From positions 1 to 64,000 of the forward strand of contig NZ_BBBG01000011.1 in the NCBI RefSeq assembly GCF_001315945.1: a stretch of 64,000 nt of DNA, given 5' to 3'. Both the position numbers and the translations under genes were made by a program. The stretch is from Methanogenium cariaci JCM 10550. Its GTDB lineage: Archaea; Halobacteriota; Methanomicrobia; Methanomicrobiales; Methanomicrobiaceae. Below the pieces are notes generated by a model. That model made no database searches and was not told the DNA's origin. It worked only from the letters and a program-made list of their open reading frames with translations. Shown piece after piece: positions 47,052-56,294 of the stretch; position 1 is the first letter of the stretch; each line of letters starts with the position of its first letter.

Positions 47052-48095
47052 TCAATCAATCTCTTTTTCACGAAACTGTTTCCTCGCATCTATTGAAATA
47101 TCTTTATAATATAACCGAATAATCTCACCTGAATGTGCGTCAACGACGGTCAAATAATGTATTCTGTGGTTATCTTGTTCCTCTTCAGGATTCTCATTTA
47201 ATTCGACTTGAAAATAAAACGGCCATACAAGGCGGATAGGCATTTCTTTCTCATAATATAACAGTTCAGAATCATCATTCCAACATAGATTTATGGTATC
47301 TGAACCCACTTGGGCTGACTTAAATGTGAAACTTTTCACTGTTCCGGGGTATTTTTCATTGACAGTTGTCTCAGCAATTTCTTTAGCTTCATCCAATGTT
47401 ATATCAGGTTCTGAAGATGGGAATGTGATATTTTCAATATCCAGCCAGAATTTGGAATAACCGAAGACGTCACCATTCATGGGTCCATACCAAAATTGAT
47501 ACCACTCGCCATATACGGAATTCCATTCCGTATCCGAGTATACCTGACATCAGCAGTCGTATTTTGAAAATATGACGACGTGATCACTGAATTATTTGTG
47601 TAATAATCTGCTTTATTCCCAGTTATATTTCTTAATAGTTCCTGAGCGATTATTTCTGCATCTTCCAGTGATATTTCTAATTCTCCTTTTTTCTGGTGCA
47701 TCCCAAACAGGGGGGTTAAACTGTATTATTTCTCCGGAATCTGAATCAACTTTTATTCGGTATTTTTTTCCACTCTTTGTGATTGCATTCTCATACATCT
47801 GATATGTTTTTCCTTTTATAAATCGGTCCGGTTCAGCTCTGGGCTTTAATGATTCAGGATCCATATCCGGAAATAATTCAATAATTTTTTCTTTGATGGT
47901 TTTGGGAGTTTTGATATCGTTGGCATCACCATTAATTGATTCTGTTTCTGAAGGCTTTGCTGTTGGTTCCTGAAGATCGGGTTCAATATCTGTTGAATTT
48001 TCAGGATTGGCATGTGTATACGGTATAAACACTACAGAACAGAAGGCTACCAGAATTATGGCTGCCAGGGATATAACAATGATTTTTTTGGACAT
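47052..48095 (-). CDS. exported PepSY/YcdB-like protein, copy 1 (frameshifted)
   Basis: About 345 residues, near-identical to the intact copy at 54074-55123. N-terminal membrane anchor IIVISLAAIILVAFCSVVF, a proline/threonine-rich linker, then repeated alpha-beta units of PepSY/YcdB type: ISLEDAEIIAQELLRNITG and ITLDEAKEIAETTVNEKYPG, each followed by strands ending in YLTVVDAHSGEIIRLYY (the VDAxTGEI motif). Frame breaks near 47697-47715 (G6 run) and 47480-47495. ATG 48095 chosen for the RBS GGTGA nine bases upstream. PepSY proteins often inhibit peptidases or sense signals outside the membrane; the partner here is unknown, possibly the adjacent ABC system. Confidence 0.72.
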
Positions 48096-48341: not shown

Positions 48342-49372
48342 TCACCTGAGGTCCATCCTCATGAATCTCACATATGAAATTCCAAAGAAGACTGCCGGGT
48401 AAATAAACATCATCAGAATGTTGGATCCAACCTTTCCCATAAAATCTTCAAAGGATATTCCCATCTCAGCATAATCCAGACGATACCCATTCTTAACACC
48501 TCTGTTCCATAAAAAAATGGATTTGTAATAGCACTGCCAATCTGTCCGTAATTGTGCTTGATTGAGAGATGGTTGATTATGTTCGTGATCTCCCATTCAT
48601 TCATGTAATAGCCTTTCGTCTCCTCAACCAGCAATTCGTAGTCCTCATATGAGATGTCATCACGCATATCTGCCATTGGGTCCGGCCCAAGGATGTATCC
48701 ACTTACTGATGGTGCAATTGCAGGTGCGAGATATGCGAAGGCAAAGAAGATGATCAGGGCGTATACCAATGACATGCCACTTGTTCTGGCAAATACTGAT
48801 GTCATGATTGCATGGCAAAACAACTTACCAGAAACAGAACTGATACAAACCATAACAAGAAGATTCCGGGCCACTCATCCAGACCCGGAACAATACTGTT
48901 GATCAGAAGTATTGCAACGGTAATCACAAAAACGGTTGTTACCGCAAGTGCGAGTGCAAGAATTCCGCCAATAGCTTTCCCGTTTATCACTTCGTCCCGG
49001 TATACCGGATGTGAAAACAGTGATTTGATTGATCCTGATTCACGTTCTTTTGTGATGGCATCAAACCCTATTGCTATTGCAATAAGCGCTCCAAAAACAG
49101 ATGATGCCAGTCCTCTCATAATTCCACCGAACAGATTAATCGGGGCAGGCCGGTATTCAGCAAGACCCGTATTGATATTGCCATCTTCATCCATTGCAGT
49201 GCTTCCGGAGATTGAATAGTCTGCTAATTCCATGTTGTAGATATCAAATTCAGAACACACATCCCCCCCCGGTAATAATCAGGAGCAATACAAGGAGTGC
49301 AATATATCTCCTGCTTGTAATGTGATCATGAAATTCTTTTTTTGCAATGAGTATTACTCTGTCTGCCGTCAT
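48342..49372 (-). CDS. ABC-2 type permease, first (frameshifted)
   Basis: About 340 residues from ATG 49372. It opens with VILIAKKEFHDHITSRRYIALL, the amphipathic ABC-2 start, then helix one, a ~90-residue extracytoplasmic loop, and five further helices. TKERESGSIKSLFSHPVYRDEVINGKA is the conserved cytoplasmic motif. Frame breaks near 49265 (C8 run), 48820 and 48420-48520. It ends with FMRMDLR, as does the second permease, so the two are paralogues. Together with the ATPase at 50369-51283 they form a three-gene operon read right to left. Confidence 0.82.
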
Positions 49373-49383
49373 TTATCTCACCT

Positions 49384-50367
49384 CTACCTGAGATCCATCC
49401 TCATAAATTTCACATAGGCAATTCCAAAAAAGATCGAGGGATACAACAGGAAAAATAACAACTGTAACCAGGCCTGATTCATGACCTCTTCAAATGAGAG
49501 TATGGGTGTGCCGTCTATGCAGTCCCAGGACGGCTTTGCAAATACTCTGGTAAGATCAGAATAATTCCGTTGTATTGAGAATAATGACGAAATCTCATAG
49601 ATCGCAGAGTACTTCTGATTATAATCCTGTTGTTTCTCTTCTAATCTCTCTGAATATTCATAATCCTCATCAGAATCTGCGTAATATCTCACTATGGAGA
49701 GCTCGTCTCTCGGATTCTCTCCAAGCATTGTATAGACCGCAACCCTGGCGCTGAATACCGGGATGAAAAGTGACAGAACAAACAGAATAATCAGAGACAA
49801 TATCAGGGCATTACTGCTGGAGCCTGCAATTACAGATGCCATCAGTGCAAGGGCAAAGTTGGATGCCAGAAAAATAATTGTTATCAGCCAGACTATGAGC
49901 ATCAGGCCTAATTCATACAGGGTTGGTACAATTCCCTGAATAAGAAATAATGCAAAAACCAGCATAAATACCACGGTTATTGCAATCGTGAGTGCGGCAA
50001 TCCCGCCAATCGCTTTTCCATTTATAATTTCATCCCGGTATACCGGATGTGAGAGCAGGGATCTCAGTGACTTTGTCTCTTTTTCCCCCTGAAATGAGAT
50101 CAAAACCGAGTGCAATGGCAATAATTGCACCAAATCCGTAGTATCCGATGACCTCGGTTATAGAACTGATTATTGAGAGTGGTGAAGGGACACTGCTGCT
50201 GTCTCCAGATTTATATCTGTCCAGATTATTCTGATAATCATTTATACCGGTGATTGCTCCAATTCCCACGACTATGGAGAGCATTAAGAGAAGGAGCAGA
50301 AATTTTTTACTGGTGATATGATCGCAGGTCTCTTTTCGGGCAATTATGGCGAGCTTCGGATTTTCAT
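49384..50367 (-). CDS. ABC-2 type permease, second (frameshifted)
   Basis: About 327 residues. The start at ATG 50367 gives MKIRKLAIIARKETCDHITSKK after adding one base near 50357. Helix one is followed by the polar loop (NDYQNNLDRYKSGDSSS) and helix two; GEKETKSLRSLLSHPVYRDEIINGKA is the conserved motif, reached after a frame break near 50090. The remainder is intact with five helices and a C-terminal FMRMDLR like its neighbour. The start is two bases after the ATPase stop, so translation is coupled. Its N-terminal 90 residues are related to the N-terminal part of the chimeric regulator at 55539. Confidence 0.82.
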
Positions 50368-50368
50368 A

Positions 50369-51283
50369 TCATTCCCGCCTGTATACCTGTAAGAAGAGCT
50401 CTTCCAGTCCGGGTTTTTCGAGGTGCATCTCGATTATCCCGTCAGAGACTTCCCGTAACTGGCCGGAGAGTTCTCTTCTGATATCCCTGTTTACCGAGAT
50501 CTCAGCCCGGTTCTCTGTTTTATGAATTTCAAGAATGTCAGGATGCGAGAGTTCCGGCAGGGGGGGTTTTATGGACTCGATGATGATCTTCATTGGTATA
50601 TTGCTCTGCTCTCTGAGCTGCTCTTCCACCTCCTCTGTCGTTCCCTGAGCAACCATCTTTCCCTGTGATAATATGCCGAGTGTTCGGCAGACCTGTTTTA
50701 TCTCGGACAGAATGTGGGAACAGATGAGAATCGTCTTTCCTTCGTCTGATATCTCCCGGATTATTTTTCTGAACTGGGCGACGCCTTCCGGATCCAGGTT
50801 GGCAGTCGGTTCATCCAGAATAACCACCTTTGGATCATTGAGCAGTGCCTGTGCAAGGCCCAGGCGCTGGTTCATTCCACGGGAGTAGCCACCAACGGTT
50901 TGGGTGACGCCATTCAGCCTGACAAGCTCCAGGAGATAATCAGTCCTCTCTTCCCGGCCGTCCGGACTGATTCCATAAATTTGCAAATAGTCGAGATTCT
51001 GTTTACCGGTCATATTGCCGTAAAAACCCACATCCTCTGGCAGATACCCGATGACCTCTTTTGCCTTCAGGGGGTTTCGTGCAACATCAATCCCGTCAAT
51101 CAGACAGATTCCTGCTGTGGGTTCAATCATGCCTGTCAGCATCAGGATGGTTGTAGTCTTGCCTGCCCCCCCGTTTGGCCCCCCCAGAAATCCAAAGACC
51201 TCACCCTCTTTTATCTCCATATTGAGGTGATCCACAACGCAGTTCCCATTATATTCCTTTGTTAAATTCTCAGTCTTGATCAT
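50369..51283 (-). CDS. ABC transporter ATP-binding protein
   Basis: 304 residues, intact frame. ENLTKEYNGNCVVDHLNMEI, Walker [17 protein letters not shown], signature GGYSRGMNQRLGLAQA, Walker B VVILDEPTANLDPEG, H-loop CSHILSE. The Walker A has two extra glycines compared with GFLGPNGAGKTTT; both fall in 7-base C runs (51164-51188) and would break the P-loop spacing, so they are probably sequence errors. It energises the two ABC-2 permeases downstream. The substrate is unknown; association with exported PepSY proteins suggests export of, or resistance to, a peptide or lipid. Confidence 0.9.
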   Translation of the reverse strand: MIKTENLTKEYNGNCVVDHLNMEIKEGEVFGFLGGPNGGAGKTTTILMLTGMIEPTAGICLIDGIDVARNPLKAKEVIGYLPEDVGFYGNMTGKQNLDYLQIYGISPDGREERTDYLLELVRLNGVTQTVGGYSRGMNQRLGLAQALLNDPKVVILDEPTANLDPEGVAQFRKIIREISDEGKTILICSHILSEIKQVCRTLGILSQGKMVAQGTTEEVEEQLREQSNIPMKIIIESIKPPLPELSHPDILEIHKTENRAEISVNRDIRRELSGQLREVSDGIIEMHLEKPGLEELFLQVYRRE

Positions 51284-51470
51284 GGTCTGGTCTGCCTCTT
51301 TTTATGGGAGATAAATAATTTGAGTATAGATTTATTGGTGCCTTATATTATACGATTTATGGCAGAATCATCTACACGTTTGTTAAGTGAGATGTGGGGG
51401 GGTGGATCGGTATTTTCAATGATCTGGATTACAAAAAACGCTCATGATATTCTGATGAATAGCATGCACA
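51284..51470. other. upstream region of the ABC operon
   Basis: Carries the shared motif at 51350-51375, whose minus strand runs into ATCGTATAATATAAGG (probable TATA box about 60 bases from the ATPase start). No gene. Confidence 0.5.
51350..51375 (-). promoter_or_regulatory. shared upstream motif, site 2
   Basis: atacgatttatggcagaa followed by tcatctac on the plus strand, 67 bases from the ABC ATPase start. It is not part of the PepSY segmental duplication, so the match to sites 1 and 3 is an independent one. Confidence 0.62.
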
Positions 51471-51484
51471 ACCAATGAAAGTGG

Positions 51485-51665
51485 GACAACGTCCAACATT
51501 TAATTACATTTACCTCCCTTTTCAGCCGTCGGGCAGGAAGGTTGTACCCTCTTTGAGCTTTTAGCTCGGCAAAAAACTAACCAGTGAATTGCCATCGGAG
51601 GCACAAATGTGACTTGGATCACGGATGTAAAATTGCCCTCTTCAGGTCAATTCACTGCCCATTTT
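51485..51665 (+). ncRNA. candidate IS110 bridge RNA
   Basis: The left non-coding end of IS110 elements encodes a bridge RNA whose internal loops pair with target and donor DNA. Here GAGCT/AGCTC (51555-51567) forms a 5-bp hairpin, and CAGTGAATTG at 51582-51591 pairs perfectly with CAATTCACTG at 51648-51657 around a 56-base internal loop. In that loop GCACAA (51601-51606) recurs in the left flank at 51466-51471, and ATGTAAA (51625-51631) recurs in the right end at 52959-52965. These short matches are suggestive only. Confidence 0.5.
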
Positions 51666-51684
51666 AATTAATGGATGTGGTTCT

Positions 51685-52935
51685 ATGTCATCACAAATAC
51701 ACAATTCTTGTGGTCTTGATGTTCATAAGCAGTTCATCATTGCCACAACACTGACAGATACTGATTCGTTAAAGAAGCAAAAACGGTTTGAATGGAATGA
51801 AAATGGTCTTTCAGAGTTTAAATCATGGGTATTATCCGAGCAGTGTGATGTTATCGCCTGCGAGTCAACAAGTGACTATTGGGTTCCTATCTACGACTCT
51901 CTCAACGATCATATACCTGTTATTGTCGGGAATGCACGCGACATCAAAGCCTTTACCCACAAGAAAACTGACAATGTCGATTCTGAATTCATAGCAAAAC
52001 TGGCTCTGAACGGTATGATTCAGCCATCCCGTGTCTTCACCCAGGAAGTTCGCGGATTCAGGTCTCTAATCCGTCAAAGGCACATATTTGTTCGGAAACG
52101 CTCAGATATCAAAAATGAAGCGCACAGTGTGTTGTCCAATGAAGAATTTCATCTTGACAATGTACTTTCGGATATTTTCGGGAAGGGCGGCAGACGCATA
52201 CTTTCCGGTATCATTTCAGGAACACCTGTAAATGAAATCATTGAGAGTCTCCCGAAGAATCTCCGAAAGAAGCGGGATCAAATCCTTGAAGTGTTAAATG
52301 CGGAAATCTCAGAAAACACTGCTCTCCGTCTGAAGTCATGTCTCACTATGATTGACGCATTTGATGGTGAAATTGGATCTCTTGAAAACGAATTCTTTCA
52401 CTATGCGTATGCCCGTTATCCACGGGAGATGAAGATTCTCACTTCAGTACCGGGAATTGGGGAACTTGGTGCAGCGACCCTTTTGGCTGAAATCGGAGAT
52501 TTTCATGATTTTCCATCTGGTGACAAACTTGCATCATGGCTGGGTATTGTTCCTACCGTACACCAGTCTGCCGACAAGTACTACAACGGAAGGATTACGA
52601 AAAGGGGGGGTTCCAAGGTTGCACGCTGGATGCTGACACAAATCGCCCATGCAGCAGCCAGGACTAAGAAAAGCAAACTGAAGGAATTCTATCTTCGCAA
52701 GAAGGATTCCCTGGGATTTGGCAAGGCAATTATCGCACTTGCACGAAAGATTGTGACCATTACCTGGCACCTCATAACAAATGACGAATTGTACGAAGAT
52801 GAGACCGGTTACGAAAAGAACTATATCATCAAGAAAAAGGTGTTTGAGACGATTTCAATCCCAGTGGATGAAAGAATTAAAATTTTACATGAGATGAAAA
52901 TTGTAATGGACAGAATAGATCATAGGGTAGGGTAA
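51685..52935 (+). CDS. IS110-family transposase (DEDD recombinase)
   Basis: 416 residues, intact apart from one G7 run (KRGGSK). The N-terminal DEDD RuvC-like domain begins CGLDVHKQFIIATTL (first Asp), with CDVIACESTSDYWVP (Glu) and KKTDNVDSEFIAKLA (final Asp pair). The C-terminal Transposase_20 domain has LTSVPGIGELGAATLLAEIGD, LASWLGIVPTVHQSADK and KRGGSKVARWMLTQIAHAAAR, which includes the conserved serine of IS110 enzymes. It probably makes a covalent DNA link through that serine guided by the bridge RNA. It looks functional. Confidence 0.92.
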   Translation: MSSQIHNSCGLDVHKQFIIATTLTDTDSLKKQKRFEWNENGLSEFKSWVLSEQCDVIACESTSDYWVPIYDSLNDHIPVIVGNARDIKAFTHKKTDNVDSEFIAKLALNGMIQPSRVFTQEVRGFRSLIRQRHIFVRKRSDIKNEAHSVLSNEEFHLDNVLSDIFGKGGRRILSGIISGTPVNEIIESLPKNLRKKRDQILEVLNAEISENTALRLKSCLTMIDAFDGEIGSLENEFFHYAYARYPREMKILTSVPGIGELGAATLLAEIGDFHDFPSGDKLASWLGIVPTVHQSADKYYNGRITKRGGSKVARWMLTQIAHAAARTKKSKLKEFYLRKKDSLGFGKAIIALARKIVTITWHLITNDELYEDETGYEKNYIIKKKVFETISIPVDERIKILHEMKIVMDRIDHRVG

Positions 52936-52981
52936 GGATGATCTATCCTTACACTTTCATGTAAAGAGGATCATATTTATT

Positions 52982-54034
52982 TCAGGTTGCACTGCCCTCG
53001 GATGCTGACTCAATATACTCATTGGGTTTGTAGATCCGGAAATTCGGGGATGTCATGCTGAGTATCTCGCCAGAATGTGCATCAACAACAGCAGTATAGA
53101 GAGTAAAGTTATGTCCACTATCCTCTGTTTCTGTTTCATCTTTTGTATTGACCGTGAAGTCAATTCTCCATACAAGGCGGACGGGCATATCCTTTTCATA
53201 CCATAACAGAACATAGTTGCTGTACCAGTATGGTTCCATTGTCTCTGAATTCACAGAGTCATAGTAGTATTTTATGCATCCTCTGGTCTCTGAATCCTTT
53301 TCATTGATGGTTGTCTCAATGATCTGTTTTGCTTCATCAGGGGGGGTGATCTCTGGTTCTGGAGATGAGAATGTGCTGTTTTTAAAATCAGGCCATCTTT
53401 GATAGAATTCCGCCACCTCTCCGGTCTTTAAATCAATTATCAGATGAATGGATCCGATATAAAATTGAACATCATTGTGAAATCTCTTTAATCTGACGTC
53501 TGCATATGTATTCTCCCAGTCCTTTGTAATTATATGAGACTCTTCAATGACCTCATCATATCTGTCTCCTTTTAACTTTTTGAGAAACTCAAGTGCGATC
53601 TCTTCTGCCTCTTCAAGTGAGATCTCTGGTTCCTCAGATCTTGAAAGCTGTGGCTCTGTTGATCGATATGATCGTATCTCCCTGGTCTCATAGTCAACCT
53701 TTATGTCATATTTTTCCCCCCCTTTTTCTGTGAGGGCATTTTCATACAGGATATATCTTATTTCAGGAATCTGTGAGTCACAGTCCTGTGTCGGGGGGGT
53801 GAGGGAACTCAGAAGAATATTGGGAAATAATTCAACAATTCTTTCTTTGACGCTATCAAATTCTGTGTCATTCTTTACTATTTCAGGAGGGTTGTTGGTC
53901 GGCGTAACCGTTTCTGTTTCTGTAGGTGTTGTTGAATTCTCAGTCAGGCTGTCTGTGTGCTGAATGGCCAGCACAGAGCCGGCTGCCACCAGAATTATGG
54001 CCGCCAGGAATATGATGATTATTTTTCTGGACAT
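52982..54034 (-). CDS. exported PepSY/YcdB-like protein, copy 2
   Basis: 350 residues, open frame. Signal or anchor IIIIFLAAIILVAAGSVLAI followed by a Thr/Pro linker (TPTETETVTPTNNPPE). Two PepSY-like units: ISLEEAEEIALEFLKKLKG and ITPPDEAKQIIETTINEKDS, and VVDAHSGEILSM near the end. More divergent from the other copies, which suggests an older duplication. The C-terminus (EYIESASEGSAT) ends just at the IS110 right flank and may have been altered by the insertion. It lies 39 bases downstream of the copy at 54074-55123. Confidence 0.72.
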   Translation of the reverse strand: MSRKIIIIFLAAIILVAAGSVLAIQHTDSLTENSTTPTETETVTPTNNPPEIVKNDTEFDSVKERIVELFPNILLSSLTPPTQDCDSQIPEIRYILYENALTEKGGEKYDIKVDYETREIRSYRSTEPQLSRSEEPEISLEEAEEIALEFLKKLKGDRYDEVIEESHIITKDWENTYADVRLKRFHNDVQFYIGSIHLIIDLKTGEVAEFYQRWPDFKNSTFSSPEPEITPPDEAKQIIETTINEKDSETRGCIKYYYDSVNSETMEPYWYSNYVLLWYEKDMPVRLVWRIDFTVNTKDETETEDSGHNFTLYTAVVDAHSGEILSMTSPNFRIYKPNEYIESASEGSAT

Positions 54035-54073
54035 TTATCCACTCATCTTTTATCAGGATCAAATATCCATAAA

Positions 54074-55123
54074 TCAATCAATATCGTTTTCACGAAATTG
54101 TTTCCTCGCATCTATTGAAATATCTTCATAATATAACTCAAGAATCTCACCTGAATGTGCGTCAACGACGGTCAAATAATGTATTCTGTGGTTATCCGGT
54201 TCCTCTTCAGGATTCTCATTTAATTCTACTTGAAAAAAAAACGGCCATACAAGGCGGATAGGCATTTCTTTCTCATAATATAACAGTACAGGATCATCAT
54301 TCCAGCACAGATTTATGGTATCTAAACCTTCCTGGGATGACTTAAATGTGAAACTTTTCACCGTTCCGGGGGGGTATTTTTCATTGACGGTTGTCTCAAC
54401 AATTTTTTTAGCTTCATCCAATGTTATATCAGGTTCTGAAGATGGGAATGTGATATTTTCAATATCCAGCCAGAATTTGGAATAACCGAGGACGTCACCA
54501 TTCATGGGGGGGTCTATGCAAAATTTGATTCCATTCGTCAGATACGGAATTCCATTCCGTATCCGAGTATACCTGACATCAGCAGTCGTATTTTGAAAAT
54601 ATGACGACGTGATCACTGAATTATTTATGTAATAATCTGCTTTATCTCCGGTTATATTTCGTAATAGCTTCCGGGCGATTATTTCTGCATCTTCCAGTGA
54701 AATTTCTAATTCTCCTTTTTTCTGGTGCATCCCATACAGGGGGTAAAACTGTATTATTTCTTCGGAATCTGAATCAACTTTTATTCGGTATTTTTTTCCC
54801 TTCTTTGTGATTGCATTCTCATATATCTGATATGTTTTTCCTTTTATAAACCAGTCCGGTTCAGCTCTGGGCTTTAATGATTCAATATCCATATCCGGAA
54901 ATAATTCAACAATTTTTTCTTTGATGGTTTTGGGAGTTTTGATATTGTTGGCATCACCATTGATTGATTCTGTTTCTGAAAGTTTAACTGTTGGTTCCTG
55001 AATATCGGGTTTAATATCTGTTGAATCTTCAGGATTGGCATGTGTATACGATATAAACACTACAGAACAGAAGGCTACCAGAATTATGGCTGCCAGGGAT
55101 ATAACTATGATTTTTTTTGACAT
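54074..55123 (-). CDS. exported PepSY/YcdB-like protein, copy 3
   Basis: 349 residues from ATG 55123, chosen because GGTGA lies nine bases upstream and the membrane anchor IIVISLAAIILVAFCSVVF follows at once; an in-frame ATG at 55171 would add 16 residues. PepSY-like units ISLEDAEIIARKLLRNITG and ITLDEAKKIVETTVNEKYPP, with TVVDAHSGEILELYY. The frame is intact, with only two G6-G7 runs. Nearly identical to 47052-48095. The extracytoplasmic domain could sense or inhibit a ligand of the adjacent ABC system; no direct evidence. Confidence 0.75.
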   Translation of the reverse strand: MSKKIIVISLAAIILVAFCSVVFISYTHANPEDSTDIKPDIQEPTVKLSETESINGDANNIKTPKTIKEKIVELFPDMDIESLKPRAEPDWFIKGKTYQIYENAITKKGKKYRIKVDSDSEEIIQFYPLYGMHQKKGELEISLEDAEIIARKLLRNITGDKADYYINNSVITSSYFQNTTADVRYTRIRNGIPYLTNGIKFCIDPPMNGDVLGYSKFWLDIENITFPSSEPDITLDEAKKIVETTVNEKYPPGTVKSFTFKSSQEGLDTINLCWNDDPVLLYYEKEMPIRLVWPFFFQVELNENPEEEPDNHRIHYLTVVDAHSGEILELYYEDISIDARKQFRENDID

Positions 55124-55538
55124 TTCATCTTCACCGGTGTTTGATGTGCACAATATATCTCCTGTCTGCATCTTTCAGAGACATATGGTAAATCTGGATT
55201 GTGTACATCCACATCAGATTATAATATTCACGTTCTTAAATACGATTTGTGGCAGAACTCTCTACCCGTCGGATATCTCCGCTGCTCATTCAGAGCTCTA
55301 AATAAATATCTGGAAAATTTTAGGAATTTGAGTGAAGTAAAAAACTGAGGATATATTTTTGTCAGAACAGTGAAGGAGAAAAATAATTTCTTCATTTCGA
55401 CAGGATACAATGATCCGGTTCAATCCAAATCAGTTCGGGGGGGTTTGTCCCATAAACCGCATATGAATGGAGGAACAATAAAAAGATACGGGATTTTTGC
55501 AGATATGCTTTGCAGAACTAATACACGGGGGGGGACAA
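55124..55538. other. intergenic region with shared motif
   Basis: About 415 bases between divergent genes. It carries the shared motif at 55240-55265 and the end of duplication copy B (55310). The stretch 55320-55538 has G7-G8 runs and a GGGGACAA ribosome-site-like region before the next gene. No gene recognised. Confidence 0.5.
55240..55265 (-). promoter_or_regulatory. shared upstream motif, site 3
   Basis: Identical to site 1 over 26 bases (atacgatttgtggcagaa then ctctctac), 117 bases upstream of the copy 3 start, within the segmental duplication. Confidence 0.6.
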
Positions 55539-56294
55539 ATGATAATCACAGAAAACTTCACCAAACAATACAACGGGGGGGTGAACAAACGATTTTTCCT
55601 GATCCTTTTCATCATCTGTCTGGTGCCTGGGGGGGTTGCAGCCGCAACCGGGGGGGTGACGAACTATGATGACGCACTTGATAAGTATAAAAACGGAAAT
55701 GAGGGATACGTATTTTTTCCTTCTCTCCTTCTGGTATTCAATCAGATCACCAGTTCAATTGGCCTTGACGGACAGGGTGTACGGCAGATATTATTGGCAG
55801 TGAATTTTGTTCCGGTTCTACAATTTAAGTCTGTAAATAAAGATAATATCCTGTGTAACAGTAAAAGAAAAGAGATCTGGCGTGTTGTAAAAGAGCATCC
55901 CGGCATGAGTTATACTGAACTTAAGGGAGCGTCATCCCATACTGAGGGAGATTTCAGATATCATCTTGAGATGCTGGTACGATATAGATATCTTGAAAAA
56001 TATCAGATAAATGGATTTATCGGTTACTTTAATGCGGGCGGGTCTGTAACCGACTCTGAGAAAGGTATGATCATAGCTCTGAAAAGCAAAACCGGGAAGG
56101 AAATCTATTCAATCCTTCTGAAGAACAAAGAAATATCCCGAAAAGAACTCTCTGAACATTTGGATATTACCGGCCCTACTGTCACCTGGCACATGAAGAG
56201 ACTCATCTCACTCGGAATTGTCAGAGCAACATATTCAGGCAATTCTGTCTGTTATTGCCTCTCAGATGTTCGGAAACCACTACCTGAAATGTGA
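55539..56294 (+). CDS. chimeric transcriptional regulator: ABC-gene start, permease-like anchor, two winged HTH domains
   Basis: 251 residues from ATG 55539. Residues 1-13 (MIITENFTKQYNG) look like the start of an ABC ATPase (MIKTENLTKEYNG at 51283). The next ~75 residues (NKRFFLILFIICLV, NYDDALDKYKNGNEG, FNQITSSIG) parallel the N-terminal region of the permease at 49384-50367 (NDYQNNLDRYKSG, ISSITEVIG). From about residue 103 two winged helix-turn-helix domains follow: KRKEIWRVVKEHPGMSYTEL with GDFRYHLEMLVRYRYLE, and KTGKEIYSILLKNKEISRKELSEHL with TVTWHMKRLISLG. It could be a membrane-bound regulator of the ABC/PepSY genes created by a deletion. Several G7 runs in the first 60 codons make this part uncertain. 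Confidence 0.65.
   Translation: MIITENFTKQYNGGVNKRFFLILFIICLVPGGVAAATGGVTNYDDALDKYKNGNEGYVFFPSLLLVFNQITSSIGLDGQGVRQILLAVNFVPVLQFKSVNKDNILCNSKRKEIWRVVKEHPGMSYTELKGASSHTEGDFRYHLEMLVRYRYLEKYQINGFIGYFNAGGSVTDSEKGMIIALKSKTGKEIYSILLKNKEISRKELSEHLDITGPTVTWHMKRLISLGIVRATYSGNSVCYCLSDVRKPLPEM

Follow-up and report, generated by a model that had tools for sequence, protein, structure and literature searches.

Does the non-coding left end of an archaeal IS110 element encode a bridge RNA, and, if so, in which order do its guides face the two strands of target and donor? The question is raised by a 64,000-nucleotide stretch of the Methanogenium cariaci JCM 10550 genome (NZ_BBBG01000011.1, positions 1 to 64,000; hereafter, the window), in which positions 51439-52965 can be assigned with high confidence to an IS110-family insertion sequence encoding a two-loop bridge RNA of about 140 nt, upstream of a DEDD/Ser recombinase and on the same strand. 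The recombinase (51685-52935, plus strand; 416 amino acids) scores above the cut-off for both PF01548 and PF02371, the DEDD RuvC-like and Transposase_20 domains, and reaches 246.7 bits, against a cut-off of 140, with NF033542, the NCBIfam model for IS110 RNA-guided transposases; its length lies within the IS110 range given in the consulted parts of PMC11187229. IS621 is its best solved relative, and the catalytic positions assigned via the IS621 alignment and PMC11208158, namely D12, E60, D96 and D99 together with S295, are invariant in 11 relatives. In another genus of the phylum, relatives at 64-66% identity are present in many copies, and genome records place the same relatives in Methanosarcina. 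A scan of the genome collection with the single protein found nothing, and a scan with an alignment found 46 loci; the scan of viral contigs gave no match.

The limits of the element were drawn from multi-copy relatives and relic boundaries, together with an uninterrupted site and a tandem junction in relatives. Among copies at different sites, only the sequence from (A)AAACRCAYATGA to CTTTCATGnnAA is shared, and in relics from the host and related genomes the similarity to the window element starts at 51434-51436 (six loci) or 51447 (one diverged locus). Because of these multi-copy relatives and relic boundaries, the left end is placed at about 51434-51439, some 30 bp outside 51466, where a reading made from the window alone (hereafter, the sequence-only reading) had seen the word GCACAA recur in what it took for the left flank; the recurrence is genuine, but it lies inside the element. 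An early interpretation of GCACAA as the left target guide was dropped, since the multi-copy relatives put the true left end further out. The length of 1,527 bp corresponds to one register, the exact crossover being ambiguous within the A-runs 51433-51438 and 52963-52965.

From left to right on the plus strand, the left target flank TGATCTGGATTACAAAAAA (51420-51438) carries the A-run with the AA core and is followed by the left-end tip CATGA (51443-51447), which is kept in relatives and faces the right-end TCATG across the core. Inspection reveals a short palindrome, TATTC/GAATA (51448-51461), between the tip and the X site described below, constant in position and variable in sequence among relatives. 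Next comes ATGAAAGT (51475-51482), also kept in relatives, which forms an 8-bp inverted repeat with ACTTTCAT (52953-52960); the left copy of this repeat lies about 36 bp inside the element. The right end CATGTAAA with its AA core occupies 52958-52965, as indicated by multi-copy relatives and by the uninterrupted site and tandem junction in relatives, and the core together with the right target flank AAAGAGGATCATATTTAT occupies 52963-52980. One relative (L070) is inserted within tandem repeats, leaving one uninterrupted repeat copy for comparison, and in the tandem copies L066 and L075 (G382:C139) the right end and the left end are joined as CATGGTAAACGCC, the sequence predicted for a circle junction. 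As far as their sequences go, L070 and L066 are compatible with a three-A circle junction and no target duplication; the absence of target duplication and a short core common to both ends, as known for IS110 elements, are found in these two relatives, and the flanks of L150 have the same A count. No empty site for the window insertion was found in 28 genomes of the family, which yielded only element relics and ABC-transporter matches. The host genome (assembly 59% complete) holds one intact copy, together with the decayed left and right ends of related elements at G000:C3:74532-74600 (L175) and G000:C6:62018-62148 (L180). In a sister species, a further locus (L174, G104:C2, positions 560-997) retains the left end and the RNA and has lost most of the transposase; its interpretation as a non-autonomous copy was rejected in favor of a decayed deletion relic.

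On the plus strand at 51525-51668, ahead of the recombinase gene, lies a match (144 positions, 120 bits) to a covariance model made from the left ends of 33 relatives. A closing stem, GGGCAG (51531-51536) with CTGCCC (51655-51660), is followed by a target-binding loop (51540-51582), closed by GGTT (51540-51543) and AACC (51579-51582) and bearing an apical hairpin (51555-51567), and then by a donor-binding loop (51582-51657), closed by the stem of 51582-51593 with 51645-51657; all three are backed by covariation. A hairpin, GTGA/TCAC (51609-51622), separates the two donor-loop guides, with 99% paired cells and compensatory changes. The sequence-only reading had recognized the apical hairpin as GAGC/GCTC, as well as a perfect 10-bp stem, CAGTGAATTG/CAATTCACTG (51582-51591 with 51648-51657), enclosing 56 bases, and both are present. 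The 56-base loop, whose halves it had proposed to test against target and donor, is the donor loop only; the target guides sit in the separate 5′ loop. By inspection, a TATA-like TTTAATTA (51499-51506, plus strand), about 25 nt 5′ of the structured region, would fit a possible archaeal promoter of the RNA.

Folded alone, the window RNA is only moderately better than its shuffles (z = −1.77; 8 of 200 fold as well), so the comparative signal carries the case. A six-helix structure, written by hand after the sequences had been viewed and then tested with shuffles and slides, gives 85.7% paired cells over 33 distinct left ends and a covariation score of 0.232, compared with 0.127 ± 0.007 in shuffles (0 of 500 as high); slid controls do not exceed 0.115. 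Applied to the MAFFT alignment, RNAalifold recovered neither the target-loop helix nor most of the closing stems, an outcome attributed to small register shifts in that alignment. In a structure-fitted alignment of 51 distinct matches, the score rises to 0.516 against 0.196 in shuffles (0 of 500), and the predicted fold is conserved through compensatory changes, two-sided ones occurring in 28 of the 31 base pairs. The stem covariation that the sequence-only reading had proposed to seek with a covariance model of relatives is thus above that of all shuffles. Beyond the model-building set, the model matches upstream of the transposase in most of the distant relatives tested (33-44% amino acid identity, E from 1e-13 to 3e-3); L065 (44% identical) has no match and L024 only a marginal one. 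The RNA is present in 46 of 231 genomes of the taxonomic order, and Rfam holds no matching family. In Methanosarcina sp. KYL-1 (L061, G472), an otherwise standard bridge RNA carries an insert of about 80 nt in the apical hairpin of the target loop, which suggests that this hairpin tolerates insertions.

To locate the guides, an unbiased scan set each RNA 6-mer, read in either sense, against five DNA arms (left flank, right flank, right end, left-end tip and left-end subterminal region) across 67 distinct RNAs, 35 of which have right ends, with flanks taken from copies of known orientation. The best matches were RNA 51567-51576 for the left flank (same sense, z = 12.9), 51544-51554 for the right flank (antisense, z = 6.2), 51623-51631 for the right end (same sense, z = 9.9) and 51597-51608 for the subterminal left end (same sense, z = 10.8). 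These z values are inflated by relatedness; among RNAs less than 80% alike they are 7.2, 3.6, 7.5 and 8.9, respectively. The value of 3.6 for the right flank (n = 16 elements) is near background, another RNA segment reaching 3.4, and a guide-type permutation over 39 insertions other than that of the window gives p = 5e-5 for each target guide. Natural reprogramming is seen in several relatives, and the core itself is changed in L077 and L024. Not every copy follows the guide rule; at the right end, L061 and the first L078 element are among the exceptions.

The putative guides of the window element can accordingly be read from 5′ to 3′ as right target, left target, X and left donor, the first two in the first loop and the last two in the second. 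The right target guide ACCCTCTTT (51546-51554) is complementary at 8 of 9 positions to AAAGAGGAT in the top strand of the right flank, a match that is suggestive only for a single copy because three of the positions are the A-run common to all copies. The left target guide GGCAAAAAAC (51568-51577) has the same sense as the left flank, hence would pair with the bottom strand. In the donor loop, the 5′ guide, X (AGGCACAAAT, 51599-51608), matches the X site TGCACAACC in the left end (51465-51473), and the left donor guide GATGTAAAA (51624-51632) matches the right end. Both words whose recurrence had been noticed in the loop fall here: GCACAA (51601-51606) covaries with its copy at 51466 (z = 8.9 without similar RNAs), and ATGTAAA (51625-51631), found again at 52959, covaries with the element end (z = 7.5). 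Another early assignment, of the right target guide to CCTCTT (51637-51642) in the donor loop, was dropped, as the target guides lie in the 5′ loop.

Two side observations concern element ends. In the tandem pair L078 and L087 (G543:C2), the right end of the first element mismatches its own donor guide and matches that of its neighbor, which fits, judging from sequence, an exchange between the two by recombination. L018, L055 and L153 are inserted beside sequence resembling the right end of another IS110 copy (TTTTCATnnGAA), and one element's end may act as a target for another.

The structured region ends about 16-24 nt 5′ of the start codon on the same strand, a position that would also suit a cis-regulatory leader of the transposase mRNA that guides nothing. 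Covariation with chromosomal DNA flanking the element is not expected of such a leader, yet both target guides show it, and the two element ends covary with the RNA as well, which makes this explanation highly improbable. It is likewise very unlikely that the RNA is an ordinary IS621-like bridge RNA, with a left guide 5′ and a right guide 3′ in each loop, whose reversed order merely reflects misassigned strands or ends, even though the family, the upstream position and the placement of the target loop 5′ of the donor loop are all as in IS621. The flanks come from copies of known orientation, both senses were scanned at every position, the antisense right-flank match falls 5′ of the same-sense left-flank match, and G-U pairing within the helices agrees with an RNA of plus-strand sense. 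Moreover, IS621 read in the same way gives the other order: in the copy examined as a control, the left target guide read from the printed sequence lies 5′ of the hairpin, opposite to the window element.

Within the bridge RNA so defined, the X guide calls for separate comment. The site to which it corresponds lies some 28-38 nt into the left end, beside ATGAAAGT and beyond the short variable palindrome. Guide and left end run in the same sense, so that X would pair with the bottom strand, unlike the right donor guide of IS621, to which the candidate does not correspond. The scan of 67 RNAs, also when similar ones were removed, showed no consistent trace of a classical right donor guide, one that would be complementary to the left-end tip, and no coherent match of the tip arm in either sense; a tip guide of two to four conserved bases, or of the invariant core plus one or two bases, would be invisible to it. 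There is a sizable chance, although short of an even one, that X is not paired with the left end at all and that both words are protein-binding or regulatory copies co-evolving within the lineage. A same-sense match to the top strand of the left end, about 30 nt from the core and ill-suited to an IS621 right donor guide, would sit well with such copies, as would the imperfect X matches of many close relatives; yet X covariation is the strongest of all arms once similar RNAs are removed (z = 8.9), and L024, L064, L074 and L077 have exact X matches of 8-10 nt of wholly different sequence. If X is a pairing guide, its hold on the donor would lie some 30 nt into the left end and not beside the core.

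How this arrangement relates to known systems can be judged from the consulted parts of three reports. As in IS621 (PMC11208160, PMC11208158), the RNA lies in the left end upstream of a DEDD/Ser recombinase gene, the target loop precedes the donor loop, and the guides include a dinucleotide core. Of the features that define bridge RNAs, a conserved structured RNA in a long non-coding end is present, the target loop has guides for both target strands, as covariation indicates, and the donor loop has a guide for the right-end side, with the left-end match about 30 nt from the core and in an unexpected sense. In contrast to the window element, IS621 has the bottom-strand (left) target guide first (PMC11208158), a CT instead of an AA core, and a recombinase of 328 instead of 416 amino acids; the window donor loop covaries with the right end as well as with a left-end site some 30 nt from the core, and no guide was detected beside the core on the left-end side. 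In PMC11187229, the seekRNA of ISEc21, of the IS110 group, is likewise encoded upstream of the transposase gene and has two short target matches, but the bottom-strand match comes first, the order given there for the IS110 group, whereas the top-strand match is first in the window element. The seekRNAs of the IS1111 family (for example ISEc11, ISPa11 and ISKpn4) share with the window element this top-strand-first order. The IS1111 group has subterminal inverted repeats of 7-17 bp; the 8-bp repeat described above falls within this length range, but its left copy is about 36 bp inside the element. The IS1111 RNA, however, lies downstream of the gene, whereas that of the window (51525-51668) lies upstream of it.

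Since the target-guide order is the reverse of that in IS621 and equal to that in IS1111, guide order is not tied to the position of the RNA upstream or downstream of the gene. According to the consulted text of PMC11187229, guide order distinguishes IS1111 from IS110 RNAs and hints that their mechanisms differ. Either the two traits, order and position, evolved independently, or the cassette of recombinase and RNA has been inverted with respect to the element ends. A similar layout is found in bacterial IS110 elements of about 405-407 amino acids from Paenibacillus, Alicyclobacillus and Caballeronia plasmids (L184, L172, L191, L187), in which left-target, X and left-donor matches, inspected singly and without a control, occur upstream in the same order as in the window. 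Exact same-sense matches of 7-11 nt to the left flank and right end lie at equivalent RNA positions in these plasmid-borne relatives and, less clearly, in Streptomyces; the layout suggests that the target-guide order of these bacterial relatives is also that of the window element. The Roseburia element (L173) did not show this layout, and L172 has no match to the archaeal covariance model. It is tentatively proposed, at somewhat less than even confidence, that a broad IS110 lineage, archaeal and bacterial, with recombinases of about 400-416 amino acids, combines IS1111-type guide order with IS110-type position and has its left end read by a guide that pairs, some 30 nt into the element and beyond the palindrome, with the bottom strand; if true, its geometry of donor recognition would differ from that of the solved IS621 complex. 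The IS110 family being already known, what appears to be new, with due reserve, is, first, this guide order in an RNA at this position and, second, the X guide; neither is described in the consulted text of PMC11208160, PMC11208158 and PMC11187229, and other work may exist. For this archaeal lineage, programming rules derived from IS621 would be wrong. The locus supplies a definite archaeal example of a bridge RNA, its four guides mapped, with close relatives in genetically tractable Methanosarcina, along with a testable puzzle of how the left end is read.

By analogy with the solved IS621 system, the RNA would be transcribed and bound by the recombinase, and complex formation and a circular intermediate would be expected for the window element. 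The first loop would unwind the target, pairing with the top strand to the right and the bottom strand to the left of the AA core, and the second would hold the junction of right and left ends of the excised circle, predicted as CATGT-AAA-CGCTCATGA. Strand exchange at the AA core would then insert the element without target duplication.

The surroundings of the insertion deserve brief mention. Directly adjoining it, on the minus strand at 52982-55171, are two paralogous proteins in tandem that match DUF4901 (YcdB/YcdC), and DNA related to the first paralogue is also present at 47223-47447 and 54378-54472. On the other side, genes for ABC-2 type permeases (48802-50284, minus strand), beside an ABC ATPase (50369-51283), appear divided into overlapping frames, like frameshifted genes, possibly through an assembly error. 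Further along, an open reading frame at 55497-56294 resembles an ABC ATPase at its start (MIITENFTKQYNG) and the permease after that (NYDDALDKYKNGN), with two HTH domains at its end; it may be a fusion or a remnant of a third transporter operon.
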